DNA of 64,000 nucleotides from Lathyrus oleraceus (lineage: Eukaryota; Streptophyta; Magnoliopsida; Fabales; Fabaceae), in NCBI RefSeq assembly GCF_024323335.1, contig NC_066580.1:140792188-140856187 (forward strand). Direction: 5' to 3'. Of this stretch, positions 37,268 through 61,094 are shown one piece after another. Both the position numbers and the translations under genes were made by a program. Under the pieces are notes generated by a model. It was not told where the DNA came from. It worked only from the letters and a program-made list of their open reading frames with translations, and ran no database searches. Within the stretch, counting starts at the first letter, position 1, and each line of letters begins with the position of its first letter.

Positions 37268-37272
37268 GTTTC
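37268..37272 (+). repeat. Target site duplication of element C, right copy (GTTTC)
   Basis: Matches 21143-21147; see the left copy. Confidence 0.93.
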
Positions 37273-37829
37273 ATTTTGGTGGCTATTGACTACTTCACAA
37301 AGTGGGTTGAAGCGACATCATATGCGAATATAACCAAGCAAGTTATTGTGAGGTTTATCAAGAATCAGATCATATGCCGTTATGGTGTGCCAAGTAAGAT
37401 CATTACTGATAATGGATCTAACTTGAACAATAATATGGTGGAAGCTCTTTGCAAAGACTTTAAGATTGCACATCATAATTCTTCTCCCTACATACCTAAT
37501 ATGAATGGGGCTGTTGAAGCTACAAACAAGAATATCAAGAAGATCATTTAGAAGATGGTTCTAACGTACAAGGATTGGTATGAGATGCTCCCATTTTCTT
37601 TGCACGGGTATCGTACATCCATCCGTACTTGAACAGGGGCAACCCCTTTTTCACTTGTTTATGGTATGGAAGTTGTGCTCCAAGTAGAAGTTGAGATCCC
37701 ATCGTTGTGTGTCTTGATGGAGGCCAAGTTGACTGAGGCTGAATGGTGTCAGACCATATATGACCATTTGAATTTGATCGAAGAGAAGAGGTTAACTGCC
37801 ATGTGTCATGGTAAGTTATACCAGCAAAA
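37268..37829 (+). pseudogene. Element B integrase, second half (continues from 21147)
   Basis: Starts with the residues that follow the break at 21147 (FILVAIDYFTKWVEA), then CRYGVPSKIITDNGSNLNNN, the core Glu in the MNGAVEATNKN segment, and MCHGKLYQQ. There are stops at 37549-37551 and about 37630. It ends abruptly at 37829 where minus-strand LTR E begins. Confidence 0.88.
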
Positions 37830-38717: not shown

Positions 38718-39743
38718 TGTAACACCTCAAATTTGCACCTACCTTTTGTACATACATTTTCATATTAGGTCATAACATAACATGGTCCACTGCATAACAT
38801 TGCATTGTCCTATTTGCCTCAAGTGCAAGCCAATCAAGAAATTAGGTCAAACTGGTCAGGAGATCAGTCAGTCAAGCAAGCAAGCACAATTCTCAAGGAG
38901 CCAAGGCCCTAGGGTTGGTCCAACATGTTCACATGACTTGGGGATCCATTTGAAGTGTTTTGGTCAAGGATTGGATGTTCAGAAGTCATCAGTCAATGCA
39001 CAGTCAGTCAGAAACCCTAAAAGTCAACTGTTGGTCAACTGTCCATTTAATCAGTGATTTGATGGTTGGATTTGGTTTGAGAGGTCTCATTCATGTCCAT
39101 ATAGTCCTCATATATCATGTCAAACACCATCATGGAGGAATTTGAAGCCAGATCAGAAATTTCCAAAAAGGGAAACTTGACCTGTAACTGAAATTTACCA
39201 AAAATGGAAAGTCTTGATCCTCAAACTTACATCATGATACAAGCTTCAAATGAATTTTTGCCCAACATGAAAGTTGAAGATCTTGTTCTCCCATTCCCAA
39301 AAAGTCCAAGAACTCTCAATTCCCATGTATGGTTGGCAAGTTATGATCAATTCATTTTCAAAAATTCTTGAACTTCAAAAGGCCATATCTCTCAAACCAT
39401 TTGGCCAATTTGGGTGGGGTTTTTTCCTACAAGTCACATTTGATCCCCTCTTTCCAAAAATGTAACCATCATTCACCAAAACTTCACCAATCAAAATGGC
39501 ATTTTTGGACTTGCATGAATTGATTTCAAGTGTGGTACAAAAGTGAGTTTCAAAATTAACCATTTCTAATCAATTCTACCAATCAAATATGTTCAGAAAT
39601 CATATTTTGGTCATGTTACAAAGTCATTTTCGTGCAGTACATATAGCCATTCCTAACTTGCTTGAAAATTGGCCAAAAGTACATTTTTTAACAACTACAT
39701 CCCACCTTTTCATGGACTTTGATTTGTACTTTTAAACAGAGAA

Positions 39744-39750
39744 TATAAAG
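39744..39750 (+). promoter_or_regulatory. Possible TATA box in the F 5' LTR
   Basis: TATAAAG about 1.03 kb into the LTR; the 3' LTR has the same sequence near 57150. It would make U3 about 1 kb and R-U5 about 3.9 kb. No independent support. Confidence 0.35.
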
Positions 39751-42681: not shown

Positions 42682-42799
42682 ACTTGCTTCCTGTGCAAGT
42701 TAGGGTTAGTTTAGACTTACTTCCTGTGCAAGTTAAGTGTGTGTGTGGCTTGCTCCCTGTGCAAGTCACGACTAGGATAGGCTGGCTCCCTGTGCCAGT
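42682..42799 (+). repeat. Four hairpins with loop T(T/C)CCTGT in the F LTR
   Basis: 42682-42700 ACTTGC/GCAAGT; 42715-42733 ACTTAC/GCAAGT (one mismatch); 42747-42767 GGCTTGC/GCAAGTC; 42781-42799 GCTGGC/GCCAGT. The 7-base loop is TTCCTGT or TCCCTGT in all four while the last stem changes on both sides. Also present in the 3' LTR from about 60087. Confidence 0.7.
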
Positions 42800-42940
42800 T
42801 AGCTAGAAACCTTAACTTAGGGTTGATTTTGCATGACAACATCTAGGCTCGAGTCGTAGTCTCCCTAGTGTTGTGTCTCCCTTTGTTATCTGGTTAGGCT
42901 AGTCCTTTATCCCTGCGTAGGGGAACTACGTCGCCCTGAT

Positions 42941-43502
42941 CCTCATACCAGATGAGGTACGTAGGCAGGAGATGAGCTGATCTCTCCGGGCGCCTGTGTC
43001 TTTGTTTTGTCTTGTTGTGTGCTTGGAAGCTGATGTAAGTCCATCGAGTGGCATTCGGGTTCCAGTGTGGGTTTGTTGGTTCGGATGCTGATGTAAGTCC
43101 AGTGATTGGCGTTCAGGCTCCACGTTTGCCTCCTTGTGTGTGTTTTGGTTCGGATGCTGATGTAAGCCCAGTGATTGGCATTCAGGCTCCACGTTTGCCT
43201 TTGCCTGTGTTTGTCTGTGTGCGTGTCAGCCGAGCTACGAATGCTCTGATTCTCCTTCGTCCAAAGGAGATACGTATGCATAGGATGCGATATCCTAGCG
43301 AGCATGTGTCGTTTCCCCAGTCCGAACTACTTCGACTCTGATGTCTATGCCTGATAGACTAAGTAGGCCCAGGATGCGACATCCTGCCGAGTCAGTTTTG
43401 TCTGTTTTCTTGCGTCTCTTTCAGCCAGTGTGTGTGTGTGTGAGCAGTGTTTTAGCAACCAATTTTCCTTCCTTTTGTGCGTGGATCCCGTAGAGTACTA
43501 CG
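42941..43502 (+). other. Hairpin-dense 3' part of the F LTR
   Basis: CCTCAT-ACCAG-ATGAGG (42941-42957); TAGGAT-GCGAT-ATCCTA (43281-43297); CAGGAT-GCGAC-ATCCTG (43370-43386); and a CGTAG/CTACG pair around AGTA near 43488-43502. The GCGAY loop pair has different but complementary outer base pairs. These would lie in the R-U5 leader of the genomic RNA if the upstream TATA is used. Confidence 0.6.
43025..43200 (+). repeat. Three direct repeats (58-69 bp period) in the F LTR
   Basis: GCTGATGTAAG at 43029, 43087 and 43156 starts three related units containing GTGATTGGCGTTCAGGCTCC-type sequence. Confidence 0.8.
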
Positions 43503-43689
43503 GATGCGCAGGGGTGCTAATACCTTCCCTTCGCATAACCGACTCCCGATCCCATTCTCTTTGGTCGCGAGACCACGTCTTTTCCAGGTTTACTCTGAGC
43601 GTTTCCTTTCCCTCTTTTGGGATAAATAACGCACGGTGGCGGCTCTGTTGTTCTTGTTTTCCCGCCGGTTTTTCGCGTGATGCGACAGC

Positions 43690-43707: not shown

Positions 43708-44511
43708 ATATAGAGAAGTTGACCTGTGCTGGTCCATCTTCCCTAAGCGAGTCTCTCCTAGCGCTCTCTAGGTTAGGGTTTTGGTTGCTGTTTGCTGTTA
43801 TTTATTGCATTCATTTATTTATTATTTGCATTTATGTTTGCATTAATGTTTGCATTCATATTCATCTGTTCACCTGGCTGGCTGGTTGTCTGTTTCTCTC
43901 TGTTGGGGTGGGAGTTACTCGAGGTAAAAGGCCCAATACCCAGGCCATGAGTGAAATCTAGGATACTTAGGAATAGAGTGATTCATGGGAAGCGGGTGGT
44001 ATTGCGCCACTTAGCGGAACATTGATATCACGAGCAGTTCAGACCCTGGTGGGATATTATCGTTACATACTTCGGGTGTGTATATGATGATGTTCTGCGA
44101 AAGGTTATTTATGCTGCGTTTCTCTCGACCTTACCCTGGCCTAGATGACACCCGTGAGTGGGGAGGGAATGATCATTATTACAGGTACAGTTGGTGACTT
44201 GTTGGTGACTTGTTGGTGACTTGTGATCCTGTTGGTGACTATTGGTTCAGAATTTTGGGGTCTCAGATGACTTTGGGTTTCAGATGAATATGTGGTTCCG
44301 AGTTCAAGCCGAAGCTTTGATCCTGTGTTCTGAGAGACACAGCCAACCAGTCGTGTCTGCATCATTTGCATCATAGCATATTTATTTTTCAAAAGAAACG
44401 CAATAAAAAAGATACAAAAAAAAAGAAGAAAAAAAAGAAAAGAAAAAAAAAACTAATCCCTGCATGCATATCATTTCTCAGGTACATTCCAGAGCTTGTT
44501 CACTGATAGAG
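43708..44511 (+). other. 5' leader of element F between PBS and ORF1
   Basis: Noncoding. It contains three copies of GTTGGTGACTTG near 44189-44224 (a fourth partial copy follows) and an A/AAG-rich stretch at 44386-44456. TTCTCAG at 44474-44480 could be a splice acceptor, but nothing proves it. Confidence 0.6.
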
Positions 44512-46152
44512 ATGGCAACAGTCCCAGAGTTGAAGCGGAAGACTTGTTCCTACAGCTTTCACCGTGAACCTTTGACGTCTCTGATTGAGTTGAGCAACCT
44601 TATGACCAGTGGTAACCAGAAGGGGTTTGTTGACCAGTATGGAGATATTCTGACACTGTTGAAGATGGTAGTCGATCCGGTGCCGTTGCAGACTCTTCTA
44701 CAGTTCTACGACCCAGAGCTTCATTGTTTCACCTTTCAAGATTATCAGTTGGCGCCTACTCTTGAGGAGTACTCCATTCTGCTGAGTGTCCCGGTCCGGT
44801 ATCAGGTTCCTTTCTTGGATGTGCCCAAGGAGGTTGATGTCAGAGTTGTTGCCAGAGCTCTCCATTTGGGTATCAAGGAAGTCAGTGATAGTTGGAAGTC
44901 CAGTGGGGATGTTGTAGGATTGCCTTTGAAGTTTCTGTTGAGGGTAGCTAGAGAAGAAGCAGAGAAGGGAAGTTGGGAAGCCTTTCATGCTCAGTTGGCC
45001 GTCATGATCTATGGGATCGTCTTGTTTCCAAGTATGCCAAATTTTGTTGACTATGCTGCAGTCAATATTTTCATCGGAGGAAATCCAGTTCCTACTCTGT
45101 TAGCTGACACTTACTATGCTATTCACAGTAGGCATGGTAAGGGTGGGGCTATCAGGTGTTGTTTCCCGCTTTTGCTCAGATGGTTCTTGTCTCTCCTGCC
45201 AGTCAGTGGACCTTTTGTGGATGCTCAGAGCACGCATAAGTGGACTCAGAGGGTTATGTCTCTTACTTCCTATGATATCAGATGGCAATCTTACCGGATG
45301 GATGTGCGTAACGTCATTATGAGCTGTGGAGGATTCCGTAATGTGCCACTCATAGGGACTAGGGGTTGCATCAATTACAACCCGGTTCTTTCTCTCCGCC
45401 AGTTGGGGTTTGTGATGAAGGGAAGACCACTTGAGGCTGAGGTAGCAGAAAGTGTGTATTTTGAGAAGCAGAGTGACCCGGATAGATTGGAGCAGATAGG
45501 AAGAGCTTGGAAGTCTATTGGCATGAAGGATGGATCTGTCTTAGGGAAGAAGTTTGTCGTTGCTATGCCCGATTACACTGATTGGGTCAAGGAGAGAGTA
45601 GGAATTTTGTTGTTACCCTACGATAGGATGGAGCCGTTGCAGGAGCAACCACCTTTGATCCTTGCTGAGAGTGTGCCTGCGGAGCACTACAAGCAAGCCC
45701 TGATGGAGAATCGCCGTTTGAGAGGGAAGGAGCAAGATACCCAGATGGAGCTGTACAAGGCCAAAGCTGATAGGTTGAACTTGGCTCATCAACTCAGAGG
45801 AGTGCGAGAAGAAGATGCTAGCAGACTGAGAAGCAAGAAGAGATCCTACGAGGAGATGGAGAGCATGTTAGATGCAGAACACCGGGAGTGCTTGAGGCTG
45901 CAGAGGGTTGAGGCCAGCTATCAGAAGAAGATCAGAGACTTGGAGAAGCAACTCAGAGATAAAGACATCCAGTTGAAGAAGGAAGTAGACTTGAGACAGG
46001 CATCAGAGAACCACCTTGGAGGAGAAGTGGTAGAGCTTAGACGACAACTGAAGGAGAAGATCACTCTTTTGCCAGAATGTTCAGAATGTGACCTGTTGAT
46101 AGACCAGTGTCAGTACTTGAAGACTCTCATTCCGGGAGGCCGTTTGTCTTAG
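44512..46152 (+). CDS. Ogre ORF1 (function unknown), intact, 546 aa
   Basis: The frame is open from 44464; I prefer the ATG at 44512 (MATVPELKRK), since the residues before it look like leader translation. The N-terminal ~370 residues are globular with LLQFYDPELHCFTFQDYQLA and PTLEEYSILLSVPV, the signature of the plant-specific ORF1 found upstream of gag in Ogre elements; such proteins are often annotated as DUF or 'plant mobile domain-like' (from memory). The C-terminal ~150 residues are a long charged coiled coil (KAKADRLNLAHQLRGVREED onward), ending with a conserved-looking CSECDLLIDQCQYLK tail that holds three Cys. No signal peptide or membrane segment is evident. No internal stop or frameshift. 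It is followed by a 410-bp spacer and gag. The role is unknown; the coiled coil suggests self-association or RNA/protein binding. Confidence 0.85.
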   Translation: MATVPELKRKTCSYSFHREPLTSLIELSNLMTSGNQKGFVDQYGDILTLLKMVVDPVPLQTLLQFYDPELHCFTFQDYQLAPTLEEYSILLSVPVRYQVPFLDVPKEVDVRVVARALHLGIKEVSDSWKSSGDVVGLPLKFLLRVAREEAEKGSWEAFHAQLAVMIYGIVLFPSMPNFVDYAAVNIFIGGNPVPTLLADTYYAIHSRHGKGGAIRCCFPLLLRWFLSLLPVSGPFVDAQSTHKWTQRVMSLTSYDIRWQSYRMDVRNVIMSCGGFRNVPLIGTRGCINYNPVLSLRQLGFVMKGRPLEAEVAESVYFEKQSDPDRLEQIGRAWKSIGMKDGSVLGKKFVVAMPDYTDWVKERVGILLLPYDRMEPLQEQPPLILAESVPAEHYKQALMENRRLRGKEQDTQMELYKAKADRLNLAHQLRGVREEDASRLRSKKRSYEEMESMLDAEHRECLRLQRVEASYQKKIRDLEKQLRDKDIQLKKEVDLRQASENHLGGEVVELRRQLKEKITLLPECSECDLLIDQCQYLKTLIPGGRLS

Positions 46153-46562
46153 CTTGTATCTTTGATATGTATGTTGAGAATCACCTCCAGGCTTGTTGGA
46201 TGGGATCCATTGTTGTACTCCGATTGTTTGGATTTTCTTTGTCGACTTTGTTGTATGATCCTGTTACTCATATAGATGAGGTTGTCGGTTTCACCTTGTA
46301 CTCATCACTCTTGTGTATGTTGTTTCTGTGCTTCTATGTTGTTCTTGCTGCAGGTTGCCATCTTTTGAGGATGACTCAGGCTCTTTGAATGCCTGAGGAA
46401 TGAACATATCATGTGCATCATACGCATCATTAGCACCATACTCATATCATTTTGCATAACAAGTGTTCTTGGTCGTGACTTCTCACTCTTGGTTCCTGTT
46501 CAGGCAGGATAGCTGATCAACATCCGCACCGCTACTCAACAAGACTGAATCAACAGAGAGGT
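46153..46562 (+). other. Spacer between ORF1 and gag (element F)
   Basis: 410 bp, no gene recognised; the ORF at 46107-46388 overlaps the end of ORF1 and looks fortuitous. How gag is translated from the shared RNA (reinitiation, splicing or separate promoter) is not visible. Confidence 0.55.
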
Positions 46563-49500
46563 ATGGATCAAGTACAAGCAGAGTTGGCTGAGATGAAGGC
46601 TAACATGGCCCAGTTTATGAATATGATGCAAGGGGTTGCACAAGGTCAAGAAGAACTTCGAGCCATGGTTCAGAGACAAGAGGCTGCAATTCCACCGGTC
46701 AACCATGCTCCGCCAGAGGGAGGCCCGGTCAATGATAATAATGTTGCTGCTGCTGTACCCATCAACAACTATGCTACAGGTGATGAGTTAGGGGGAATTC
46801 GAATCAACGGTCGACCTATTGTTCCAGATGCCGCTAATGCCAGAGCAGTCCGTGCCCCGGCCCGTAATCCTGTTCCGATTGTTGACAGACAAGAGGATAT
46901 GTTCACTCTGCTCAGTGAAGACGAAGACGTTCTGGGAAGGGTTGATGAGAGGGATCGTAAAGTTGATGCCCTTGCTGAGAAAATTAGAGCTATGGAATGT
47001 CAGAATTCTCTCGGTTTTGATGTTACCAATATGGGGTTGGTGGAAGGTTTGAGAATCCCTTACAAGTTCAAAGCACCGTCCTTCGATAAATACAACGGTA
47101 CTTCTTGCCCTCGCACCCATGTGCAGGCTTATTATCGAAAAATCTCTGCGTATACCGATGATGAAAAGATGTGGATGTATTTTTTCCAAGATAGTCTATC
47201 TGGGGCTTCTTTGGACTGGTGCATGGAATTGAAGAGAGATTCGATCCGCTGTTGGAGGGATCTGGGTGAGGCCTTCTTGAGGCAATATAAACATAACATG
47301 GACATGGCACCGAGCCGGACTCAGCTGCAGAGTCTTTGTCAGAAATCCAATGAGAGCTTCAAGGAGTACGCCCAGAGGTGGCGTGAACTGGCTGCTAGAG
47401 TTCAACCCCCTATGCTGGAGAGGGAGTTGACAGATATGTTTATCGGTACTCTTCAGGGTGTGTTTATGGACCGGATGGGGAGCTGCCCATTCGGTAGTTT
47501 TTCTGATGTTGTCATTTGTGGAGAGAGGACTGAGAGCTTGATTAAAACTGGGAAGATCCAAGATGCTGGTTCCTCTTCTTCTAAGAAGCCATTTGCTGGG
47601 GCACCTCGTCGAAGAGAGGGTGAAACTAATGCTGTTCAATACCGCAGAGATCAGAACAGAAGTCAACGCTGCCAAGCTGCTGCAGTAACCATTCCGGCAC
47701 CTCAGCCTCGTCAACAACAACAACAAAGAGTTCAACAACTGCAACAACAACAACAACAGCAACGTCCGTATCAGCCCAGACAAAGGGTGCCTGATCGACG
47801 TTTTGATTCGCTACCCATGTCGTACGCCGAACTGCTGCCCGAACTACTCAGGTTGGGGATGGTTGAGTTGCGTACAATGGCTCCGCCTACCGTATTGCCT
47901 CCTGGGTACGACGCCAACGTCCGTTGTGACTTTCACTCTGGGGCACCAGGGCATCATACTGAGAAGTGTCGGGCTCTCCAGCACAAGGTCCAAGATTTGA
48001 TCGATGCCAAAGCAATCAACTTCGCTCCAGTGCCTAACGTCGTAAACAACCCTATGCCTCAGCATGGTGGGCATAGAGTGAACAATATTGAGGGGAAAGA
48101 AGCTGAAGATCTGGTTGTTAATATTGATGATGTTCAGACTTCTCTGCTAGTTGTGAAGGGCCGTCTGCTGAATGGGGGTGTCTACTCGGGCTGTGATGAG
48201 GATTGTTTGGGCTGTGCAGAATCTGAGAATGGTTGTGACCAGTTAAGGGCCGGTATCCAGGGTATGATGGATGAGGGTTGTTTGCAATTCAGTAGGGCTG
48301 TAAAAGATCGTGGAACAGTGTCAACTATCACCATTTACTTTAAACCGTCTGAAGAACATGGACAAAGGGTCGTTAGTGCACCTGCAACAAATGGTACCCC
48401 AGTTACCATTTCCGTGCCTGTAACCATCAGTGCTCCAACTACTATCGTTGCGTCTGGAAGAAGGGCTGTTGAGAATAGTAGAGTCGTGCCGTGGAAGTAT
48501 GATAATGTTCACCGCAGTTACAGAAGGGCTGAAAGTCAGACGAGACCAGTGAATCAAACTCCAGTGACAATTGGTTTACCGAATAGAGTTCCTGCAACTG
48601 TTGGTCCGGCTGTGGATAATGTAGGGGGTCCAGGAGGTTTTACCAGAAGCGGTCGTCTGTTCGCACCGCAGCCTTTGAGGGACAATAATGCTGAGGCTCT
48701 CGCCAAAGCAAAGGGTAAGCAAGCTGTGGTTGAGGAAGAACCTGTCCAGAAGGAAGCGCCCGAGGGGACATTTGAGAAGGACGTGGAGGAGTTTATGAAG
48801 ATAATCAAGAAGAGTGACTACAAGATTGTAGATCAGTTGAATCAAACTCCGTCCAAGATTTCTATACTTTCACTGTTGTTGTGCTCTGAGGCACACCGTA
48901 ATGCCTTGCTGAAGATGTTGAATCTGGCTTACGTGCCTCAGGAGATTTCTGTCAATCAACTGGAGGGTGTGATGGCCAATGTGAGCACCAGGCATGGTGT
49001 GGGATTCACCAACCTGGACTTAACGCCTGCAGGGCGAAACCATAACAAAGCCTTGCACATCACCATGGAGTGCAAGGGGGCAGTGTTGTCTCACGTATTG
49101 GTAGACACCGGGTCGTCGCTGAATGTGCTGCCTAAGCAGATTCTGAAGAAGATTGATGTGGAAGGGTTTGTGCTTACTCCCAGTGACCTGATCGTTCGTG
49201 CTTTCGACGGATCCAAACGTTCTGTATGTGGGGAAGTTACCTTGCCTGTGAAGATAGGTCCTGAGGTATTCGATATCATCTTCTATGTTATGGACATCCA
49301 GCCCGCCTATAGTTGTTTATTGGGGCGTCCATGGATTCATGCAGCAGGGGCAGTCTCGTCGACTCTCCATCAAAAGCTCAAGTATGTCTGGAACGGTCAG
49401 ATTGTGACTGTGTGCGGTGAAGAAGAGATTCTGGTGAGTCATCTATCCTCGTTCAAATATGTTGAGGTGGATGGCGAGATCCACGAAACCTTATGCCAGG

Positions 49501-49883
49501 CATTTGAGACTGTGGCTCTTGAGAAAGTGGCGTACGCTGAACAGAGGAAGTCAGGTGCTTCAATTACTTCTTACAAGCAGGCTAAGGAGGTTGTTGATTC
49601 TGGCAAAGCTGAAGGCTGGGGCAAGATGGTGGACTTGCCTGTTAAAGAAGACAAATTTGGCGTTGGTTACGAGCCTCTCCAAGCAGAGCAGAATGGTCAA
49701 GCGGGTCCGAGTACTTTTACCAGCGCTGGGCTGATGAATCATGGCGACGTCTCTGCAACCGGTAGTGAAGACTGTGACAGTGATTGTGATTTGGACAACT
49801 GGGTTCGCTCGTGTGCACCAGGGGAGTCTATCAACAACTGGACGGCTGAAGAAGTGGTTCAAGTTACTCTTCTGACAGAGTAA
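46563..49883 (+). CDS. Element F gag-protease, intact first exon, 1106 aa
   Basis: ATG at 46563 in a purine context. N-terminal coiled coil (residues ~1-40); retrotransposon gag domain (~170-330, with WMYFFQDSLSGASLDWCMEL and FKEYAQRWRELAARVQPPM); a Gln-rich stretch (~380-405) encoded by CAA repeats at 47707-47765; a zinc-knuckle-like CDFHSGAPGHHTEKC at residues 455-469 with a non-standard CHHC pattern; a Thr/Pro-rich linker; the conserved QTPSKISILSLLLCSEAH helix (~760-780); and the protease with DTGSS at 848-852, then CLLGRPWIHAAGAVSSTLHQ. It ends acidic, at a TAA whose first bases overlap a splice donor (GTAATT at 49880). Acts in particle assembly and polyprotein cleavage; continues into RT by predicted splicing. 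Confidence 0.95.
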   Translation: MDQVQAELAEMKANMAQFMNMMQGVAQGQEELRAMVQRQEAAIPPVNHAPPEGGPVNDNNVAAAVPINNYATGDELGGIRINGRPIVPDAANARAVRAPARNPVPIVDRQEDMFTLLSEDEDVLGRVDERDRKVDALAEKIRAMECQNSLGFDVTNMGLVEGLRIPYKFKAPSFDKYNGTSCPRTHVQAYYRKISAYTDDEKMWMYFFQDSLSGASLDWCMELKRDSIRCWRDLGEAFLRQYKHNMDMAPSRTQLQSLCQKSNESFKEYAQRWRELAARVQPPMLERELTDMFIGTLQGVFMDRMGSCPFGSFSDVVICGERTESLIKTGKIQDAGSSSSKKPFAGAPRRREGETNAVQYRRDQNRSQRCQAAAVTIPAPQPRQQQQQRVQQLQQQQQQQRPYQPRQRVPDRRFDSLPMSYAELLPELLRLGMVELRTMAPPTVLPPGYDANVRCDFHSGAPGHHTEKCRALQHKVQDLIDAKAINFAPVPNVVNNPMPQHGGHRVNNIEGKEAEDLVVNIDDVQTSLLVVKGRLLNGGVYSGCDEDCLGCAESENGCDQLRAGIQGMMDEGCLQFSRAVKDRGTVSTITIYFKPSEEHGQRVVSAPATNGTPVTISVPVTISAPTTIVASGRRAVENSRVVPWKYDNVHRSYRRAESQTRPVNQTPVTIGLPNRVPATVGPAVDNVGGPGGFTRSGRLFAPQPLRDNNAEALAKAKGKQAVVEEEPVQKEAPEGTFEKDVEEFMKIIKKSDYKIVDQLNQTPSKISILSLLLCSEAHRNALLKMLNLAYVPQEISVNQLEGVMANVSTRHGVGFTNLDLTPAGRNHNKALHITMECKGAVLSHVLVDTGSSLNVLPKQILKKIDVEGFVLTPSDLIVRAFDGSKRSVCGEVTLPVKIGPEVFDIIFYVMDIQPAYSCLLGRPWIHAAGAVSSTLHQKLKYVWNGQIVTVCGEEEILVSHLSSFKYVEVDGEIHETLCQAFETVALEKVAYAEQRKSGASITSYKQAKEVVDSGKAEGWGKMVDLPVKEDKFGVGYEPLQAEQNGQAGPSTFTSAGLMNHGDVSATGSEDCDSDCDLDNWVRSCAPGESINNWTAEEVVQVTLLTE

Positions 49884-50132
49884 TTTTCTGTTGTTTTGTC
49901 ATTTTGCATGAAAATCCTACGATCTGCCCAAGGCGTAGTGATTCATTGTAGGGCCTCATCATGTTTTAATGATTATCATTAATGAAGGACATTTTTTGAA
50001 ATCAAACTTTGTGATCCCTGTCTTTCTATTTTTTGTTTTCATCTTTTTTTCAAAACAATAAAAATGGCAATGTTTTTGTTTTTCGTGACTTTATTGAACT
50101 CTTTTTTCTAAAACAAAGCATTAAACATGCAG
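49880..50132 (+). other. Predicted spliced intron between protease and RT (253 bp)
   Basis: Donor GTAATT at 49880, acceptor CATGCAG ending at 50132, T-rich AT-rich body, and a branch-like CTAAAAC near 50108. Gag-protease is in one frame and RT in another. Joining base 49879 to 50133 completes a Glu codon (GA plus A) and leads straight into the RT frame with no stop. Ogre elements are known to splice at this position. The exact sites are my prediction. Confidence 0.75.
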
Positions 50133-53100
50133 AAGCGATCTTATGGCATTCACTATGAACAGTTCTGTTATGGCCCAGTATGATTTCGACAATCCCATCT
50201 ACCAAGCTGAAGAGGAGAGTGAGGAAGACTGTGAACTTCCTGCAGAATTGGTCAGATTGCTGAAGCAGGAGGAAAGGGTCATCCAACCTCATCAGGAGGA
50301 GTTGGAGGTTGTTAATTTGGGTACTGAGGACGCCAAAAGAGAAATCAAGATTGGGGCTGCTTTAGAGGACTCTGTCAAGAGGAGGCTGATTGAGATGCTG
50401 AGAGAATATGTGGAGATATTCGCCTGGTCATATCAAGATATGCCTGGGTTAGATACAGACATTGTGGTGCATCGATTACCTCTTAGAGAAGGATGTCCTT
50501 CGGTCAAGCAGAAGCTTCGTAGAACGAGTCCTGACATGGCAACTAAGATCAAGGAAGAGGTTCAGAAGCAGTGGGATGCGGGTTTTTTGGCTGTTACAAG
50601 TTATCCCCCATGGGTGGCCAACATCGTTCCTGTGCCGAAGAAGGATGGTAAAGTCAGAATGTGTGTCGATTACCGGGATTTGAATAGAGCGAGTCCGAAA
50701 GATGATTTCCCATTACCTCACATTGATGTATTGGTTGATAATACGGCTCAATCCTCGGTATTCTCTTTCATGGATGGTTTCTCCGGATATAATCAGATCA
50801 AGATGGCGCCAGAGGACATGGAAAAGACGACATTCATTACACCTTGGGGCACGTTCTGCTATAAGGTGATGCCATTTGGGCTAAAGAATGCTGGTGCTAC
50901 CTATCAGAGGGCAATGACGACTCTTTTTCATGACATGATGCACAAAGAAATTGAAGTGTATGTAGATGATATGATTGCGAAGTCGCAGACAGAAGAGGAG
51001 CACCTGGTTAATTTGCAGAAGCTGTTTGACCGGTTGAGAAAGTTCAAACTGAGGCTGAATCCGAACAAGTGTACGTTTGGAGTGAGATCAGGGAAGCTGT
51101 TAGGCTTCATTGTCAGTGAGAAAGGGATTGAGGTTGATCCAGCTAAAGTCAAAGCTATTCAAGAGATGCCTGAACCGAAAACGGAGAAGCAAGTCCGTGG
51201 GTTTTTAGGGAGGTTGAACTACATTGCAAGGTTCATATCTCACCTAACTGCCACATGTGAACCAATTTTCAAACTGCTTAGAAAGAATCAGGCGATCAAG
51301 TGGAATGATGACTGTCAGAAAGCTTTTGACAAGATAAAGGAGTATTTACAGAAACCTCCAATCCTTATACCTCCAGTTCCAGGGAGACCTCTGATAATGT
51401 ACCTGTCAGTGACTGAGAACTCGATGGGGTGTGTATTGGGACAGCATGACGAGTCTGGTCGAAAAGAGCATGCCATATACTACCTTAGCAAAAAGTTTAC
51501 CGACTGTGAAACAAGATATTCACTGCTCGAGAAAACTTGCTGTGCTTTGGCCTGGGCTGCTCGCCGACTGAGGCAGTATATGTTGAACCATACTACCTTG
51601 TTGATTTCTAAGATGGATCCAGTAAAGTACATCTTTGAGAAACCAACTCTCACCGGACGCGTTGCTCGTTGGCAGATGATTCTAACAGAATATGATATTC
51701 AGTACACGTCACAAAAGGCCATCAAAGGTAGTATTCTGTCAGACTACCTCGCCGAGCAACCGATTGAAGATTATCAGCCTATGATGTTTGAATTCCCTGA
51801 TGAAGACATCATGTATCTTAAAATGAAAGATTGCGAAGAGCCTCTTGTTGAGGAAGGACCGGATCCGGATGACAAGTGGACACTGATGTTTGATGGGGCT
51901 GTGAATATGAATGGTAACGGTGTTGGGGCAGTACTGATCAATCCTAAAGGTGCTCATATACCTTTTTCTGCCAGATTGACGTTTGACGTCACCAACAACG
52001 AAGCTGAGTATGAGGCTTGTATCATGGGGATAGAAGAAGCCATTGATCTGAGGATCAAAACTCTTGATATATTTGGAGATTCAGCTCTAGTGGTCAATCA
52101 AGTCAATGGAGATTGGAATACGAATCAGCCGCATTTGATTCCGTATAGAGATTACACTAGAAGAATACTGACGTTCTTCAAGAAGGTGAAGTTGTATCAT
52201 GTCCCCCGGGATGAGAATCAAATGGCCGATGCCTTGGCAACTTTGTCGTCTATGATCAAAGTTCATTGGTGGAATCATGTGCCACATGTTGCGGTGAATC
52301 GACTCGAGAGGCCTGCGTACGTGTTTGCAGCCGAGTCTGTTGTGATTGATGAGAAGCCGTGGTATTATGACATCAAGAACTTCCTCAAGACTCAGGAGTA
52401 TCCTGAAGGTGCGTCGAAGAATGACAAGAAAACCCTGAGAAGGCTAGCTGGAAGCTTCTATTTGAATCAGGATGATGTGTTGTATAAGAGAAACTTTGAC
52501 ATGGTCTTACTCAGATGCGTGGACAGACCCGAGGCGGACATGTTAATGCAGGAAGTTCATGAAGGTTCCTTCGGTACTCATGCCGGCGGACATGCAATGG
52601 CTAAGAAATTGTTGAGAGCGGGTTATTACTGGATGACTATGGAATCCGATTGTTTCAAGTATGCTCGGAAGTGCCATAAGTGTCAAATCTATGCTGATAA
52701 GGTGCATGTACCACCAAGCCCTCTGAATGTCATGAATTCGCCTTGGCCGTTTGCCATGTGGGGCATTGATATGATTGGGAAGATTGAGCCTACTGCTTCG
52801 AATGGACATCGCTTCATCTTGGTTGCGATTGACTACTTCACCAAATGGGTGGAAGCAGCTTCCTATGCTAACGTTACCAAACAAGTGGTTACCCGGTTCA
52901 TCAAGAAAGAAATCATATGTCGTTATGGAGTTCCTGAGAGAATCATCACTGACAATGGTTCGAATCTCAATAACAAGATGATAAAGGAGCTGTGTAAAGA
53001 TTTCAAGATTGAACATCACAATTCTTCTCCTTACAGACCGAAGATGAATGGTGCTGTAGAAGCTGCGAACAAGAATATCAAGAAGATTGTGCAGAAGATG

Positions 53101-53255
53101 GTCGTTACGTACAAGGATTGGCATGAGATGCTGCCTTTCGCTTTGCATGGGTACCGTACCTCAGTACGTACGTCGACCGGGGCAGCCCCTTACTCCCTTG
53201 TGTATGGTATGGAAGCTGTCCTACCTGTTGAAATGGAGATTCCTTCTCTGAGAGT
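50133..53255 (+). CDS. Element F RT-RNaseH-aRNaseH-integrase, second exon
   Basis: Numbering from the ATG at 50143: RT with WVANIVPVPKKDGKVRMCVD, FITPWGTFCYKVMPFGLKNA and YVDD at 273-276. RNaseH at ~410-540 has lost the expected first Asp (YLSVTENSMGCVLGQ) and the later DH-type Asp (LISKMDPVKYI). Archaeal-type RNaseH starts MFDGAVNMNGNGVG (Asp584), then NNEAEYEACI and FGDSALVV. Integrase has the zinc region from His806 to CHKC, and a core Asp876, Asp937, Glu973 with exactly 35 residues between the last two (DX35E). The frame is correct to about 53255, where a missing base shifts it; it then stops at 53313. Enzymes act in the reverse-transcription particle and nucleus. Confidence 0.95.
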
Positions 53256-53609
53256 TTATTGGATGTCAAGCTGGACGAAGCCGAGTGGATTCGAACAAGG
53301 TTTAACGAGTTGAGCCTTATCGAAGAGAGACGGCTAGCAGCTGTATGCCATGGACAGTTGTATCAGCGAAGGATGAAGCGAGCCTTTGATCAGAAAGTGC
53401 GTCCTCGAAGCTATCAGATCGGTGATCTAGTTTTGAAGAGGATCCTCCCTCCCGGTACAGATAACAGGGGCAAGTGGACTCCTAATTATGAAGGTCCGTA
53501 TGTTGTGAAGAAGGTCTTCTCCGGTGGAGCCTTGATGCTTACAACTATGGATGGTGAAGACTTTCCGTCTCCTGTTAACTCAGATGTAGTCAAAAAATAC
53601 TTCGCATAA
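53256..53609 (+). pseudogene. Element F integrase C-terminus, out of frame by 1 bp
   Basis: Frame 3 continues the integrase homology (MDVKLDEAEWIRTRFNELSL, GDLVLKRILPPGTDNRGKW, NYEGPYVVKKVFSGGA) to TAA at 53607-53609, while the upstream frame runs out at 53313. Comparison with elements B and C shows one base missing in the T-rich GTTTATTGG at 53255-53263. This is the only lesion seen in F's coding sequence; it may be real or a sequencing error. Confidence 0.88.
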
Positions 53610-53618
53610 ATTGACCCG

Positions 53619-53822
53619 CTGGACAAAAAAAAAAAAAAAAAAAAAGAGAGTCCAGGCAAAAAAAGGGCATCCCGGCGAACCAAAAAACAGAAAGAAAAGG
53701 TTCGGGCAAAAATTAGGGATAAAATGAAAAGAATTTGTACACCCGGTAAGTCGAAAACCCGCAAGGGCGGCTTAGGCAAAAATGGGTATCCCGGTGGATT
53801 GAAAACCCGAAAGGGCGATCCA
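53619..53822 (+). other. Four hairpin modules after the F integrase stop
   Basis: 53619-53655: CTGGAC/GTCCAG around an A-run. 53676-53704: CGAACC/GGTTCG around an A-rich loop. 53747-53774: TAAGTC/GGCTTA, bulge GAAAA, inner CCC/GGG, GNRA loop GCAA. 53795-53822: TGGATT/GATCCA, bulge GAAAA, inner CCC/GGG, GNRA loop GAAA. Each is followed by GGCAAAA. The four outer stems differ completely but all are complementary (allowing G-T). Confidence 0.78.
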
Positions 53823-55060
53823 GGCAAAAGAGGGATTAAAGCAAAGACTACAGTCTGAGTTGTCTGTACTTCATCAAGCTTTGTCGTCTGCCATCTCGAA
53901 AGATGTGATCCGTCCAGTCATTCTTCTCAGAAAGCAAGGAGTCAGGAGGAAAACTGATCATCTGTGAGTTATAACAGAATTGGGAAATGGTGGATGCCGT
54001 GTTCACATTGCCATTAGGATAGATCTTTCCTTTTGTGCGCAATTACCTCTTTCTAGGAATTGCCTCCCAATGTATTTGCCTTTTCAGGCGCATTTTCAAT
54101 CAATAAAAGTCGTTATTCAGATAAATAGCTCTTTTATTTTTATTTTTACTGTTTTGTTTGCAAAAATGTCCGAATTTTTGATAAGCATTGCATATAAAAA
54201 CAAGAAGGCTAAACAATAGCTTGCAGGATGACAAAACATTTGAAAATCATTTTGAATGTTGAGGACACTTGAGCGTATCTTGTCCATGTATCCCCTGGGG
54301 GCATTTTGTCGTGCTGTTTTTCAGATTGGCATCTGTGAGGACGTTTCCTCAGCAGATATTTTCCCCAAGCAAGTTTGGAAGCTATCAGGGCTATGTTCCC
54401 CTGCGGAGACGTCTGTGGATAGTGCCTTCTATTCCCCAACAGATCTAAGGTTTGCCTATCCCCAGCAGGCCTGTATTTGCCGATTTCCTCCCCGAGTGAG
54501 GCAGACTCATTGAAATTTATCTCCAACATTTATCCTATCTGTGGACTGAAGGATATCCCCAGCGGAGTTTACCTTTCCCCAGCAGCAGTGCTATTCTCCA
54601 ACATGAGTGAAAAGTCGTTGCTCTCCCTACAGAGTCTCCCCGCAGAGTTGGAGTACCCAATCAGTTTTGGCTCCCCAGCCGGAGTTTTTTTTCATCATTT
54701 TTGCATTTTAGTGATCATTGCATCCTCAAACTGCGTAGCATTCCCATTCAATATGGAGCATTACGCCATAGAAAAATTCAAACATATGCATTCATGTGTT
54801 AACCTCACCAGACCATATCCCCGGCAGAGGCGGATCATTTCATTCAACATCAGCACAGCAAGTCTGCTACTGTTGCTTTTGACAGCATTCAGGATTGATA
54901 TCCCCACAAAGGTTTATTACCTCACCCGTTGGTGACAGAAAGTTTATTTCTCCCCAGTGAGACCCCCAGCAAGTGGTCAACCTTGCCTTGACATATCTAA
55001 AAAATCGTTCTTGTGATACCGGTAAGTGTCATACTAGCACTCGCGTGTGTTTCTTTGTTT
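53823..55060 (+). other. Element F 3'UTR, middle part
   Basis: No gene. From about 54285 the strand is studded with CCCCAGC, CCCCTG and GGAGTTT motifs, the same theme as 26800-27200 in C. ORFs here are low-complexity readings. Confidence 0.6.
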
Positions 55061-55400
55061 GGTGTCGGTAAACACCATTGTTTCGGTGTCTGTAAACATC
55101 GGGTATTCTCCCCAGTCATCAGTAAATGTCTGGTCATCATTTTTGGTGTCGGTAAACACCATTGTTTCGGTGTCTGTAAACATCGAGTATTCTCCCCAGT
55201 CATCAGTAAATGTCTGGTCATCATTTTTTTGGTGTCGGTAAACACCATTGTTTCGGTGTCTGTAAACATCGGGTATTCTCCCCAGTCATCAGTAAATGTC
55301 TGGTCATCATTTTTGGTGTCGGTAAACACCATTGTTTCGGTGTCTGTAAACATCGGGTTTTCTCCCCAGTCATCGGTAAATGTCTGGTCATTTTTTTTTT
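55061..55400 (+). repeat. 84-86-bp tandem repeat, 4 units (F 3'UTR)
   Basis: Units start with GGTGTCGGTAAACACC at 55061, 55145, 55231 and 55315. Each unit contains three hairpins: GGTGT-CGGTAA-ACACC, CGGTGT-CTGTAA-ACATCG and CCAGTCAT-CAGTAA-ATGTCTGG (one T-T mismatch). Ogre 3'UTR repeats are known sources of satellite DNA. Confidence 0.92.
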
Positions 55401-55990
55401 GATGTCGGTAAACATCATCTTTCGATGTCGGTAAACATCGAGTCTTTTCTGCAGTCATCGGTAAATGTCTGATAATCCCCAGCTAGAAATCCCCAGTAGA
55501 GTCATCGGTAAATGTCCTATCTGGTTTCCAGTTGCAAATATTTGTTTTTTCCCTTAGTAAAGTGTTCCCCGGTCATCGGTAAATGTCTGGTCATGCTTTG
55601 TTTCCTTGTTGATAAAATCAAGATCCCCAGAAGTCGTCGGTAAACGTCTTGTCTGATTACACCACAAAGATTTTGTTCCTCCTCAAGTGAAGACGCCATC
55701 GGTAAATGGCCCAGTTTTCTTCGATATCGGTAAATATCGAATTCCCAGTTGCAGCAGCCATCGGTAAATGGTCTCGCTGAAGTTGATATCGGTAAATATC
55801 AAGTTTCTTTGAAACCACCATCGGTAAATGGTCTTGCTTCCTTTTACATCAGAGTTGTTTCCCAGCAGCCATCGGTAGATGGTCTTGCTGAAGTTGATAT
55901 CGGTAAATATCAAGTTTCCAGTTTCTAACCATCGGTAAATGGTTTCGCCTTTCTGAAGTTGTCAATGGCAGGCGTCATCAGTAAATGACG
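55401..55990 (+). repeat. Array of divergent hairpins with CGGTAA-type loops (F 3'UTR)
   Basis: Irregularly spaced palindromes with different stems: GATGT/ACATC (55401), TCGATGT/ACATCGA (55422), CAGTCAT/ATGTCTG (55452), CCGGTCAT/ATGTCTGG (55569), AAGTCGT/ACGTCTT (55631), GCCAT/ATGGC (55695), TTCGATAT/ATATCGAA (55720), TTGATAT/ATATCAA (55783, 55894), ACCAT/ATGGT (55817), AACCAT/ATGGTT (55927), CGTCAT/ATGACG (55973), and others at 55501, 55757, 55868. The loop is CGGTAA, rarely CAGTAA or CGGTAG. Confidence 0.88.
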
Positions 55991-56110
55991 TGGTTCTTCT
56001 TGTATCATATCCTGCAGAGTGCAAATTTCTACGGTTCTTGGTATTCAATCCCTGTTTACCCTGAAAGTCTGACAGCCGTTGCTCTCATCCATTCGGGTTC
56101 CCAGTTGATT

Positions 56111-56123
56111 GAATAGGGGCAGC
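56111..56123 (+). promoter_or_regulatory. Polypurine tract of element F
   Basis: GAATAGGGGCAGC ends exactly at the 3' LTR start TGTAACACC. Confidence 0.88.
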
Positions 56124-59100
56124 TGTAACACCTCAAATTTGCACCTACCTTTTGTACATACATTTTCATATTAGGTCATAACATAACATGGTCCACTGCA
56201 TAACATTGCATTGTCCTATTTGCCTCAAGTGCAAGCCAATCAAGAAATTAGGTCAAACTGGTCAGGAGATCAGTCAGTCAAGCAAGCAAGCACAATTCTC
56301 AAGGAGCCAAGGCCCTAGGGTTGGTCCAACATGTTCACATGACTTGGGGATCCATTTGAAGTGTTTTGGTCAAGGATTGGATGTTCAGAAGTCATCAGTC
56401 AATGCACAGTCAGTCAGAAACCCTAAAAGTCAACTGTTGGTCAACTGTCCATTTAATCAGTGATTTGATGCTTGGATTTGGTTTGAGAGGTCTCATTCAT
56501 GTCCATATAGTCCTCATATATCATGTCAAACACCATCATGGAGGAATTTGAAGCCAGATCAGAAATTTCCAAAAAGGGAAACTTGACCTGTAACTGAAAT
56601 TTACCAAAAATGGAAAGTCTTGATCCTCAAACTTACATCATGATACAAGCTTCAAATGAATTTTTGCCCAACATGAAAGTTGAAGATCTTGTTCTCCCAT
56701 TTCCAAAAAGTCCAAGAACTCTCAATTCCCATGTATGGTTGGCAAGTTATGATCAATTCATTTTCAAAAATTCTTGAACTTCAAAAGGCCATATCTCTCA
56801 AACCATTTGGCCAATTTGGGTGGGGTTTTTTCCTACAAGTCACATTTGATCCCCTCTTTCCAAAAATGTAACCATCATTCACCAAAACTTCACCAATCAA
56901 AATGGCATTTTTGGACTTGCATGAATTGATTTCAAGTGTGGTACAAAAGTGAGTTTCAAAATTAACCATTTCTAATCAATTCTACCAATCAAATATGTTC
57001 AGAAATCATATTTTGGTCATGTTACAAAGTCATTTTCGTGCAGTACATATAGCCATTCCTAACTTGCTTGAAAATTGGCCAAAAGTACATTTTTTAACAA
57101 CTACATCCCACCTTTTCATGGACTTTGATTTGTACTTTTAAACAGAGAATATAAAGATGATTTTCTGTCATTTACAAACCCTAGCAGCCATCTAACCACA
57201 TAAATCCACTCTCTCTCAAATTCCATCTTGCTTGCATTTTCCAAAATCAGTCAAAAAGCTCCAAAGAACTCGAGCAAGCCATTGTTTATTCACCATCCAA
57301 GCATCATTGTGGACACTTTGCAACCATATTTCCCCAACTGAAAGCTCCTTTCCTAGCACTGTTTTCAAAGAGCTCAGCCATGGCAGATTGATATTCTAGC
57401 AAGAACAAGCTACATTGAGCCAAGATTACTTCACCATTCAACTTGTGAAGGCTAAGTTTTCCTCTGTTCGAGCTTATACAAGCCAGAAAACACCCGAATC
57501 TTCATCTGCCTTGCAGATTTGGTTAGTATTCGATTCTCTCTATTTCCAAAACTTTGCCATGCTTAGTGTAGGTCTTAGTACCCTGATCATTATGAGCTTT
57601 GAATGGTAGAATTTGGTTAAATAATTAGCAAGAAATCTGGAAATGAAGATTGATGTTCATATGCTTTTTTGCTCGATTCTCTCTCAATAGCTTGTTACCA
57701 TGAAAATAATGCTTGAAGTTGTCATGTGTATGGTCTGATGGTTCTATTGGTGTACTCATTGATCATTTCTGGGAATGTTTGTTCTTGAGCAAGTGTTAAT
57801 GTTGAATGTTCTTTGGTTCGATTCATGATATATGTGATGTTTTGATGAAAATTGATGTTGGATTCTTACTTGCCATGCCATGCTGAACATTTCTGTGTAA
57901 CCAATTTGGAATTCTGGGAAATTTCATGAAAACACGATTTGGGGATGAAGGTTGTTGCTTACTGTTCATGAACCCTAGGGTTTCTTCATAAGCCTTGCCC
58001 AGAATTGTTGTTGTGAACGTGCGCATGGCACTGTACGCCATGCTGACCAATGAGAATATTTCATTCTCGCGACCAAAACGCGGCCGTTTTGATTAGTGAC
58101 CCCATAATTTCAAAAATGCCATCCGTGGCACATGGTTTATTGAAAATAAGTTATTTCTTTTCCATTTTAATTTCATTTGATCATCAAACTTTCAAAAATC
58201 ATAACTCATTCATGTTAAATCCATTTCTCATGGGAATTTTTGCATTATCTTCATCATGATCTCTACTTTTTTATCATAATTTTTCCAGAATTTTGTGATC
58301 AATGGATTTTAATTGGTATTAGGGTTTGTGACATGTGCTCATATTTTGTACACTTTGCCAAAACATTTGTGAAATGGTGATACTTTATCCAATGGCTCCC
58401 AAATTTTTTGTGCTTAAACTAGACACACTCATGGTGATTTTGGTGTAGAGTTTGTGAATTTATCATTGCTGGTTTGTGAGTTATGATTTTTTGAATTAGG
58501 GTGTGACAATTTGTGTCACACCATTGATGTCCAACTTCATGATTTTCATTACCATGCTTCTTGAACTCAAATTGGTTTGAATTTTTGCATGAATGTACTC
58601 TAGGATGTCTAGTTTACATGTGAATTTTCTTGGAATTATTTGTGGCATTTCCTAATTGTTTGAGATTTTCTCCCTTGTTTAGTCATATGTTGACTTTTTG
58701 TGACACTTGTTCCCATTTCATTTGTGAAATTCTCATACTTTATTAGATGGACATGAAATTTTACATGAGATAACTAGACATCCTCATCTTTGCCATGGTT
58801 TTAGTCCCATTCATTTATCATACATCATCTCTGACTTATGATTTTTCTAAGTTGATGCATGTTTGGTTGACTTCTTTGAGCATGTTCAAAATTGCTTTGA
58901 CTTTCTGATTTTCATTGACTGCCTTCCACTTGTCCAAATGAGATGAAATTTGACATGCTTACCATGCTGTGGGTTATGATTGATCATGATTTATTTGATG
59001 ATTTTTGGAAATGTTTAAGATTGCTTTTTGAGTTAAGTCTTGCTGTTGACTTCTATGAGTTTCTGTTTGCAACACTTTGACCTAAATTGTTCATGAAATG

Positions 59101-61094
59101 ATGATGATGATTGATATGAATGTGAACCCAATTGGTTGTGTTTCTTAATTGTTTGAACATGATTTTGGATGCTTTCCCTTTGCTGTTTTGACTTTTTCAT
59201 TCCTTTTTGACCCTAGGCTTGCCCTAGTGGTCTGTTACTCACCTTTGAGCTCATGTTTTCAGGTTGACCAACAAATGACCAATGAGACCAACTCTTTTTG
59301 ATTGAGCTTGCTTGATTATCATTGACTAACTTGCTTGTTTTGTAGGTGGCTTAGCTCACATACCTTAAGCCTTAAGTCTTGCACATCCATTTGCTTCTGA
59401 TTAACTGTTGATGTCTGTTTCTTTTTGCTTTGTTTGAAGTTGTATACTAATGTCTGCTTGACTATTTCAGGTGCTTTTAGTTGCTCAGTTCCTTGTGAAC
59501 TTTTGCTTTGCTTTGCTTGTATAAGCAATTTGCATTTAGGTATATTTCTAATCTTCATGTAGTCTGGAAGACCTGGCCTGTTACTTGGCCAGGCAACTGT
59601 CTGAAGTCCTCCTTAAGAGGCAATGTTTGTGGATGTTTAATTTTGTCCTTGCATAGAGTCAAAGTCCTCCTAAGTGAAGAGGCAATTGGCAGAACCCAAG
59701 GGATATGCAACCTATCCCCTGCTATTCTGTGTGTCATCTGTTTTGCTCACACCACTGTGTTGATGCATTGCAAATACAAACCCAAGATCTTGTACAATTG
59801 TACAGTTGAGTCAGTTTTAAATGTGTAGAAGGGTTCCCACTTTCTGAACCCACACATTCTCGTCTTGAGCTCTCCCAGGCCAGGGATAAGAGCTGTGAAG
59901 TCTTATCTTCACTCACCTTTCATGTGCTTCACCTTAGTCTCTCAATGGCAAGGTTAAGAGCAACATTTACCCAGTTCCAGAGGTTTGTTTGTTGAGGTTG
60001 ATATGACCCCTCGACTAAAACCTAACCCTTGCTTGAGCCACTTGTTTGTGTATAGTGTGTGCTACTTGTGCTTGTATGTTTGTTTGACTTGCTTCCTGTG
60101 CAAGTTAGGGTTAGTTTAGACTTACTTCCTGTGCAAGTTAAGTGTGTGTGTGGCTTGCTCCCTGTGCAAGTCACGACTAGGATAGGCTGGCTCCCTGTGC
60201 CAGTTAGCTAGAAACCTTAACTTAGGGTTGATTTTGCATGACAACATCTAGGCTCGAGTCGTAGTCTCCCTAGTGTTGTGTCTCCCTTTGTTATCTGGTT
60301 AGGCTAGTCCTTTATCCCTGCGTAGGGGAACTACGTCGCCCTGATCCTCATACCAGATGAGGTACGTAGGCAGGAGATGAGCTGATCTCTCCGGGCGCCT
60401 GTGTCTTTGTTTTGTCTTGTTGTGTGCTTGGAAGCTGATGTAAGTCCATCGAGTGGCATTCAGGTTCCAGTGTGGGTTTGTTGGTTCGGATGCTGATGTA
60501 AGTCCAGTGATTGGCGTTCAGGCTCCACGTTTGCCTCCTTGTGTGTGTTTTGGTTCGGATGCTGATGTAAGCCCAGTGATTGGCATTCAGGCTCCACGTT
60601 TGCCTTTGCCTGTGTTTGTCTGTGTGCGTGTCAGCCGAGCTACGAATGCTCTGATTCTCCTTCGTCCAAAGGAGATACGTATGCATAGGATGCGACATCC
60701 TAGCGAGCATGTGTCGTTTCCCCAGTCCGAACTACTTCGACTCTGATGTCTATGCCTGATAGACTAAGTAGGCCCAGGATGCGACATCCTGCCGAGTCAG
60801 TTTTGTCTGTTTTCTTGCGTCTCTTTCAGCCAGTGTGTGTGTGTGTGTGAGCAGTGTTTTAGCAACCAATTTTCCTTCCTTTTGTGCGTGGATCCCGTAG
60901 AGTACTACGGATGCGCAGGGGTGCTAATACCTTCCCTTCGCATAACCGACTCCCGATCCCATTCTCTTTGGTCGCGAGACCACGTCTTTTCCAGGTTTAC
61001 TCTGAGCGTTTCCTTTCCCTCTTTTGGGATAAATAACACACGGTGGCGGCTCTGTTGTTCTTGTTTTCCCGCCGGTTTTTCGCGTGATGCGACA
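56124..61094 (+). repeat. 3' LTR of element F (4971 bp)
   Basis: Near-identical to 38718-43687 (about 19 substitutions and 2 indels by eye, including one C deleted relative to 41826 and one extra GT in a GT run near 60840). It ends GATGCGACA before CTTAG. It contains the same hairpins and repeats as the 5' LTR. No genes. Confidence 0.96.

Follow-up and report, generated by a model that had tools for sequence, protein, structure and literature searches.

The question raised by this locus is how a row of short palindromes can change the letters of its stems and still keep them complementary, around a loop that hardly changes. The window is the whole stretch of 64,000 nucleotides analysed here, from Lathyrus oleraceus (NC_066580.1, positions 140,792,188–140,856,187). 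The palindromes are located in the 3' untranslated region (3'UTR) of an Ogre retrotransposon and form an array of 28 hairpins at 55012–55992, which ends about 120 nt upstream of a putative polypurine tract. The hairpins have covarying arms and are conserved in place across many copies. Very probably, the array is under selection as RNA.

On the plus strand between 55000 and 55995, 29 words differ from CGGTAA by at most one change, and 28 of them have pairing flanks. The remaining one, CGGTCA at 55570, overlaps an arm of a hairpin. The original prediction, made from the letters alone, counted more than 20 CGGTAA hairpins, with at least 15 differing palindromes beyond the four tandem units. The array is real and larger than this, with 28 hairpins and 17 distinct 7-base arm pairs. 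The loops are CGGTAA (19 hairpins), CTGTAA (4), CAGTAA (4) and CGGTAG (1), and only CTGTAA had been missed. The predicted T-A closing pair is seen in 27 of the 28; the exception is C-G in the hairpin at 55020, just beyond the range of that prediction. C at loop position 1 is invariant across 20 aligned window hairpins.

The array can be divided into four parts, all on the plus strand. The first hairpin (55012–55033), with the C-G closing pair and the loop CGGTAA, is followed by four tandem modules of 84–86 bp (55058–55387). Each module contains three hairpins: A1 (GGTGT/ACACC), A2 (CGGTGT/ACATCG, with the loop CTGTAA) and B (CAGTCAT/ATGTCTG, with T·T at pair 4). Six more hairpins are seen at 55398–55651, two of class A, three of class B and one AAGTCGT/ACGTCTT. 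The last nine (55692–55992) are mostly alternating CCAT/ATGG and GATAT/ATATC types, and then CGTCAT/ATGACG with the loop CAGTAA. Complementarity is not complete in every hairpin, which corrects the original prediction: those with GTCAT/ATGTC and GTCGT/ACGTC arms carry T·T at pair 4, in most cases with more pairs beyond it (the weakest is at 55506), and some stems include G·T. Mismatches tend toward G·U on the transcribed strand.

That the two arms change together, as the original prediction supposed, is seen in the window itself. Among 19 distinct rows, the covariation score is 0.702, against 0.308 (standard deviation 0.038) in shuffled controls and at most 0.204 in slid controls. Paired cells amount to 91.2% against 69.9% when shuffled, and two-sided changes occur at all six pairs. 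Pair 1 is UA in 18 rows and CG in 1; pair 2 is AU in 13 and GC in 6; pair 3 is CG in 11, UA in 7 and UG in 1. The counts for pair 4 are AU 5, CG 5, GU 2, GC 1, UA 1 and other 5, for pair 5 GC 15, AU 2 and GU 2, and for pair 6 CG 5, AU 4, UA 4, GU 1 and other 5. At pairs 2 and 3, A-T or G-C is combined with C-G or T-A in all four ways, giving the inner triplets CAT, TGT, TAT and CGT. When right arms were reassigned among the 17 arm pairs, none of 20,000 trials attained the observed pairing, whether the stem was taken as 5, 6 or 7 pairs long. When they were reassigned only inside classes of equal inner triplet, it was reached in 82, 2 and 4 of 20,000, respectively. The exception among these measures is the number of further pair types, reached by 218 of 500 shuffles. 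A covariance model built from 20 window hairpins matches the 28 and nothing else under E 1 in the 64 kb, and folding of the array RNA has a z of -4.95 against 20 shuffles. A scan of 53300–56200 against Rfam revealed no family; the one match, greA leader, scores 18.3 bits where the gathering threshold is 60.

The array is also present elsewhere in the genome. A DNA search with 55395–55995 gave 2,503 first-look candidates, of which 40, including the window, were scored; these are 30 loci (the window being L014) and ten others that were fetched. With a minimum of 5 of 6 pairs as the criterion, the number of hairpins per locus is 14 to 31 in L011 and L014–L043. The match runs across the junction between the polypurine tract and the 3' long terminal repeat (LTR) in 40 of 43 loci, and not in L009, L013 and L052 within the stretches at hand. 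In 40 loci (L011 and L015–L053), there are 913 exact CGGTAA words on the strand of the array, and 895 of them are flanked by arms with four or five standard pairs out of five. This demonstrates conservation and is no unbiased sample, since the loci, apart from L011, were selected for their likeness to the window array. On the opposite strand of the same array stretches there is no CGGTAA. Paired flanks are seen for 2 of 13 control words in L001–L008 (Fisher p 2.6e-16 against these 13) and 3 of 11 in the window outside the array. Within these arrays, CGGTAA with unpaired flanks is much rarer than with paired flanks; equal frequencies would have spoken against the original prediction. The covariance model found no hairpin under E 0.5 in L001–L008 and L012. 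Genome-wide counts of TCGGTAAA are 132,150 on one strand and 134,075 on the other; those of the reversed word are lower, at 99,382 and 99,497.

Further copies are represented by 11 predicted proteins from JGI and ENA contigs that read through the array (one with E 2.2e-4, ten with E 5.9e-47 to 0.59). In these, 222 of 230 cells at pairs 2–3 are compatible with Watson-Crick pairing, while the null has a mean of 160 and a maximum of 182. The order of stem classes is alike. On the minus strand, the classes run BCDCCDCDCEBBBAABAABAABAABAAF in the window array, and in the other copies DCCDCDCEBAABAABAABAA (P0131), CDCDCEBAABAABAAF (P0127) and EBAABAAF (P0124); P0129 and P0130 are less regular.

Changes shared among copies differ from those private to one copy. 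Here, 11 hairpins (55577–55979) were compared in 40 aligned copies, the window and L015–L053; L011 was dropped because of its short match. Stem pairs 1–5 gave 55 pairs, of which two with majority T·T were set aside and 53 left, and the direction of change was polarised by the majority letter alone. Private stem variants are 7 to G·U, 6 to A·C, 8 to other mismatches and 1 two-sided pair. Of those in at least two copies, three lead to G·U, three turn G·U into a Watson-Crick pair, one changes both sides and stays Watson-Crick, and one leads to A·C. A standard pair is kept in 7 of 8 shared variants against 8 of 22 private ones (Fisher p 0.035). A first pass on 30 copies and Watson-Crick-majority pairs only gave 6 G·U, 6 A·C, 7 other and 1 two-sided among private variants, and 2 G·U, 1 two-sided and 1 A·C among shared ones. 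Private variants per site are 0.152 in the loop, 0.200 in the stem and 0.265 in the linker, and variants in at least three copies are 0.030, 0.064 and 0.216. The counts of private, two-copy and three-or-more variants are 10, 4 and 2 for the loop (66 sites), 22, 4 and 7 for the stem (110), 24, 3 and 16 for the edge (63), and 49, 22 and 40 for the linker (185). Shared relative to private variants are scarcer in loop plus stem than in the linker (Fisher p 0.012; only the private and three-or-more classes enter, excluding the edge), although this and the former p-value are optimistic, because only 8 stem variants are shared and the copies are related. C-to-T and G-to-A changes at the CG of the loop account for most loop variants, as would be expected of methylated CpG in silent copies. 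It had been argued that mutation alone would not keep the arms complementary, and that arms mutating independently with loss of pairing would contradict the idea. Private mutations do break pairs, like neutral change; the argument holds only once selection is added. These facts fit selection on the sense RNA, and speak against stems being rebuilt by copying.

The latter mechanism, template switching at palindromes during reverse transcription, had been one of two offered in the original prediction. Pairing would then be a product of copying, with no selection. A two-sided change from T-A to C-G at pair 4 of the hairpin at 55979, present in 5 of 40 copies with no intermediate seen, is what such a mechanism would leave. 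However, palindrome rebuilding would erase T·T and G·U, and both persist. T·T at pair 4 is seen in 40 of 40 copies (55638) and 36 of 40 (55577), 38 of 40 copies carry G·T at the fifth pair of 55762, and the CTGTAA-loop hairpin with its G·T is in 25 of the 34 loci of the strand count below. At pair 3 of 55790, the wobble intermediate is segregating in a full series of T-A (12 copies), T·G (24) and C-G (4). Copying also leaves the conserved loops unexplained. Template switching is therefore unsupported, and we consider it very improbable.

Another possibility is that founder hairpins were amplified as DNA repeats, so that their conservation would reflect recent descent without function. The tandem modules and their differences in copy number do indicate active duplication, and many of the 40 scored copies are 96–98% alike across the 3' part. 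But stems vary more than loops within one array, and recent descent does not predict the scarcity of shared variants in loop and stem relative to the linker. Amplification as the whole explanation is improbable.

Selection on pairing leaves the question of which strand acts. In 34 loci (L009–L011, L013 and L014–L043), 125 distinct variants were counted around anchors, some of which, such as the LTR junction, are not hairpins. At pairs 2–5 on the sense strand, the ratio of G·U to A·C is 20:1 for variants in at least two loci (10 and 1 in at least three, 10 and 0 in two), and 34:15 for those in one locus; at least one of the 20 G·U variants belongs to the LTR junction. Because many variants share their descent, these counts are not independent. 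Private linker transitions have no strand bias (16:16). Compared with the nearest window hairpins, L011 has 4 one-sided changes to G·U at pairs 1–5, where no change to A·C is seen. At pair 6, there is a single change to G·U, a single one to A·C and a single one to another mismatch, with one from G·U to Watson-Crick. In the sister arrays described below, some stems (GTTGGTGT/ACGTCGAG, for example) need G·U on the sense strand in order to pair. In the protein read-through, G·U is seen in 10 and A·C in 0 of 182 unambiguous cells in sense, but this is not taken as proof of the strand, because some ambiguous cells at pairs 4–5 point the opposite way. With G·U kept and A·C rarely kept, pairing likely, though not certainly, acts in the sense RNA.

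The modules suggest how the array grows. Four A1-A2-B units in the window are nearly identical and make up the 84–86 bp tandem, and one more, diverged unit follows them. This tandem has the look of a homogenised stretch within an older array of hairpins. The number of three-hairpin modules varies among related copies; AAB runs number 4 in the window, 3 in P0131, 2 each in P0122 and P0127, and 1 in P0124. In one sister locus (L009:711–1463), a 61-bp unit is repeated 12.3 times, each unit having one CGGTAA hairpin of type A1 and one B-like hairpin with the loop GCGTAA. It is a possible nascent satellite inside an element. The prediction that a satellite-like repeat may arise from a hairpin array holds to this extent, for short tandems only.

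Sister arrays are present at L009:1–1480 (minus strand), L010:880–1800 (plus) and L013:1900–2580 (minus), with CGATAA and TGGTAA loops on G·U-rich stems. The same loci have the tetraloop hairpins C-CGTT-G, C-CGCT-G and C-CTAT-G on differing, matching stems, although CTC-CGTT-GG anchors in the tetraloop list pair over at most 2 bases. The window also includes an older, different Ogre copy, whose LTR pieces are 91.8% and 93.8% identical and whose 3'UTR lies at about 26.2–28.95 kb. In this 3'UTR (26200–28957), two repeat families are interleaved, one with TACC/GGTA arms around C[AT]GTAAC (5 copies) and the other with 8 copies; the fold is weak (z -1.89). The TACC/GGTA repeats are possibly an independent hairpin array. 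Together with the sister arrays, they offer a lead that hairpin arrays may be a wider habit of Ogre 3'UTRs, with a loop type by lineage.

Constrained pairing, free stem letters and a constrained loop are expected of a protein-binding hairpin, and more than 20 copies argue for multivalency. The recognition-site reading, the other mechanism of the original prediction, is thus favoured, since inherited variants preserve the loop and the pairing and leave the stem letters to vary. We give about an even chance to the reading that, in the genomic RNA of Ogre, this 3'UTR array is a structured, multivalent element which binds a protein for assembly. Each unit would be a short stem, its letters free if paired, presenting the hexaloop C-N-G-U-A-R. 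Many loops would be bound together by an RNA-binding protein, most likely the Gag or ORF1 protein of the element itself, and the bound full-length RNA might be selected and condensed for particle assembly. Recombination or slippage would add or remove modules, yielding the tandem 84–86 bp unit. The site just upstream of the polypurine tract would suit recognition of full-length RNA. Gag and assembly as the function are a more tentative proposal.

Several observations weigh against this assembly reading. In many hairpins, T·T comes right after an inner stem of three pairs. A shared change to A·C occurs at the closing pair of 55577 in 8 of 40 copies, and the p-values above are optimistic. Linker variants in at least three copies are biased (G>A/T>C, 15 versus 7), when polarised by majority only. 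The CGGTAA loop is not universal in Ogre, as the CGATAA, TGGTAA and CGTT-like loops of the sister arrays indicate. Folding does not favour the sense strand: z relative to shuffles is lower in antisense for 5 of 7 arrays, and is -5.18 in sense and -7.07 in antisense for the window array. This last point would fit pairing in single-stranded DNA (cDNA) or in antisense transcripts. However, G·U in sense is A·C on the other strand, which is hard to reconcile with the ratio of 20:1, though G·T in plus-strand DNA is still compatible. We regard action in DNA or antisense RNA as quite improbable.

A rather unlikely, but more serious, alternative is that the array serves nuclear export or processing of intron-containing Ogre RNA and is bound by a host protein, like a constitutive transport element. 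The location near the 3' LTR and the structural evidence fit it equally well. Ogre RNA is partly spliced, according to PMC6317226 and PMC12786077, so unspliced RNA must also exit the nucleus. The invariant loop C is unlike a plain 5' splice site word, as its consensus is commonly given, and nothing else speaks specifically against export. The invariant C also places an array of 5' splice sites low among the candidates. Kissing-loop dimerisation is rejected, because CGGTAA is self-complementary over no more than CG. A possible long-range partner, TTAC[CT]G, has eight sites in the element: 40553 and its copy at 57959 in the LTRs, five coding and one in the UTR. Returning to protein recognition, the binder could be first Gag or ORF1, and second a host export or processing factor.

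It can be speculated, with some reserve, that the Ogre hypervariable repeat tract is in general a selected multivalent RNA element of 14–31 hairpins, a platform for packaging and assembly of genomic RNA, whose modular growth feeds satellites and whose loop was switched with the binding protein in sister subfamilies. Should the repeats owe their existence to a need of the RNA for many hairpins, satellites would be born through selection for a multivalent RNA element. In that case, a plant LTR retrotransposon would offer a cis-acting signal in its RNA that can be tested directly.

The element that carries the array spans 38718–61094 (more than 20 kb, plus strand), with a 5' LTR at 38718–43687 and a 3' LTR at 56124–61094, each of 4.97 kb. 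To judge from the LTR identity of 99.58%, it is young. Between the LTRs, there are ORF1 (44407–46149; DUF7745, Pfam PF24924, E 2.7e-116), a gag open reading frame (ORF; 46479–49880; Pfam Retrotrans_gag, E 2.9e-13) and an ORF with Pfam domains of reverse transcriptase (RT), RNase H (RH), additional RNase H and integrase (INT) at 50125–53310. The 3'UTR, from the end of pol homology to the 3' LTR, is 53609–56123, and 56111–56123 is presumably the polypurine tract, from its position next to the 3' LTR and the usual rules. CCCAG words recur at 54461–56104, including between hairpins, and in the other Ogre copies of the window. An additional RNase H between RH and INT is a criterion of the Ogre lineage, according to PMC6317226. 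Here, RVT_3 is at residues 589–706 of the last ORF, between RT/RH (170–523) and INT (800–972). With the extra ORF upstream of gag, the very long LTRs and the length, this confirms the earlier naming as Ogre (Ty3/gypsy, Tat). In the Ogre lineage, a spliced intron separates the gag-protease and RT ORFs; here the open frames are about 240 bp apart, and any such intron is putative. The focal pol is disrupted at its C-terminal end, Ogre homology continuing in another frame to about 53608, in three separate frames. At 53230–53608, the open frame is lost before integrase homology ends, despite LTRs 99.6% identical.

Elsewhere in the window, one Ogre pol (18722–21147 and 37270–37731) is apparently split by an inserted Ogre with LTR pieces from 21147 and 28956, suggesting nested insertions. 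Ty1/copia-type pol pieces (integrase and RVT_2) are seen in consecutive open frames at 7784–11593. No relatives of array or pol were found in viral contigs, none of pol in genome contigs (pol query only) and none of the array in plasmids and phages. An Ogre-like pol protein labelled Salmonella enterica (P0062) is probably plant DNA inside a bacterial record.

Tandem repeats in the 3'UTR of Tat/Ogre elements are known as the source of satellites in Lathyrus sativus and of PisTR-A in pea, and as minisatellites of soybean Gmr9/GmOgre, according to PMC7004042, PMC3305785 and PMC9659126. The tract here agrees with these hypervariable repeats in element type, location between pol and 3' LTR, variable tandem units (84–86 bp, of number varying among copies) and satellite seeding. 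The available accounts describe repeats, whereas here they are covarying hairpins with a conserved loop. In PMC3305785 and PMC7004042, the main text nowhere uses "hairpin", "palindrom" or "secondary structure". Covarying hairpins are not described for this region in the titles and abstract openings listed by literature searches, nor in the accessible parts of PMC3305785, PMC11963269, PMC7004042, PMC6947457, PMC9659126, PMC6317226 and PMC12786077, though Macas et al. 2009 (Gene) may hold an earlier mention of palindromes. The repeat tract itself is thus known, and covarying hairpins with a conserved loop in it are apparently undescribed, as far as these partial texts go.

Outside retrotransposons, the packaging signals of single-stranded RNA viruses, such as satellite tobacco necrosis virus, consist of many short hairpins that work in concert, with a common loop motif on varied stems. 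The Ogre array likewise has a common loop motif on variable paired stems. The viral signals are spread genome-wide and their protein contact has been studied, while the Ogre hairpins are clustered in the 3'UTR and known from sequence. Retroviral constitutive transport elements and the coat-protein hairpins in the 3'UTR of alfalfa mosaic virus and ilarviruses also consist of structured RNA that is repeated close to the 3' end, and they have a protein partner. They are like the Ogre array in this placement and repetition, and differ from it in sequence and number.
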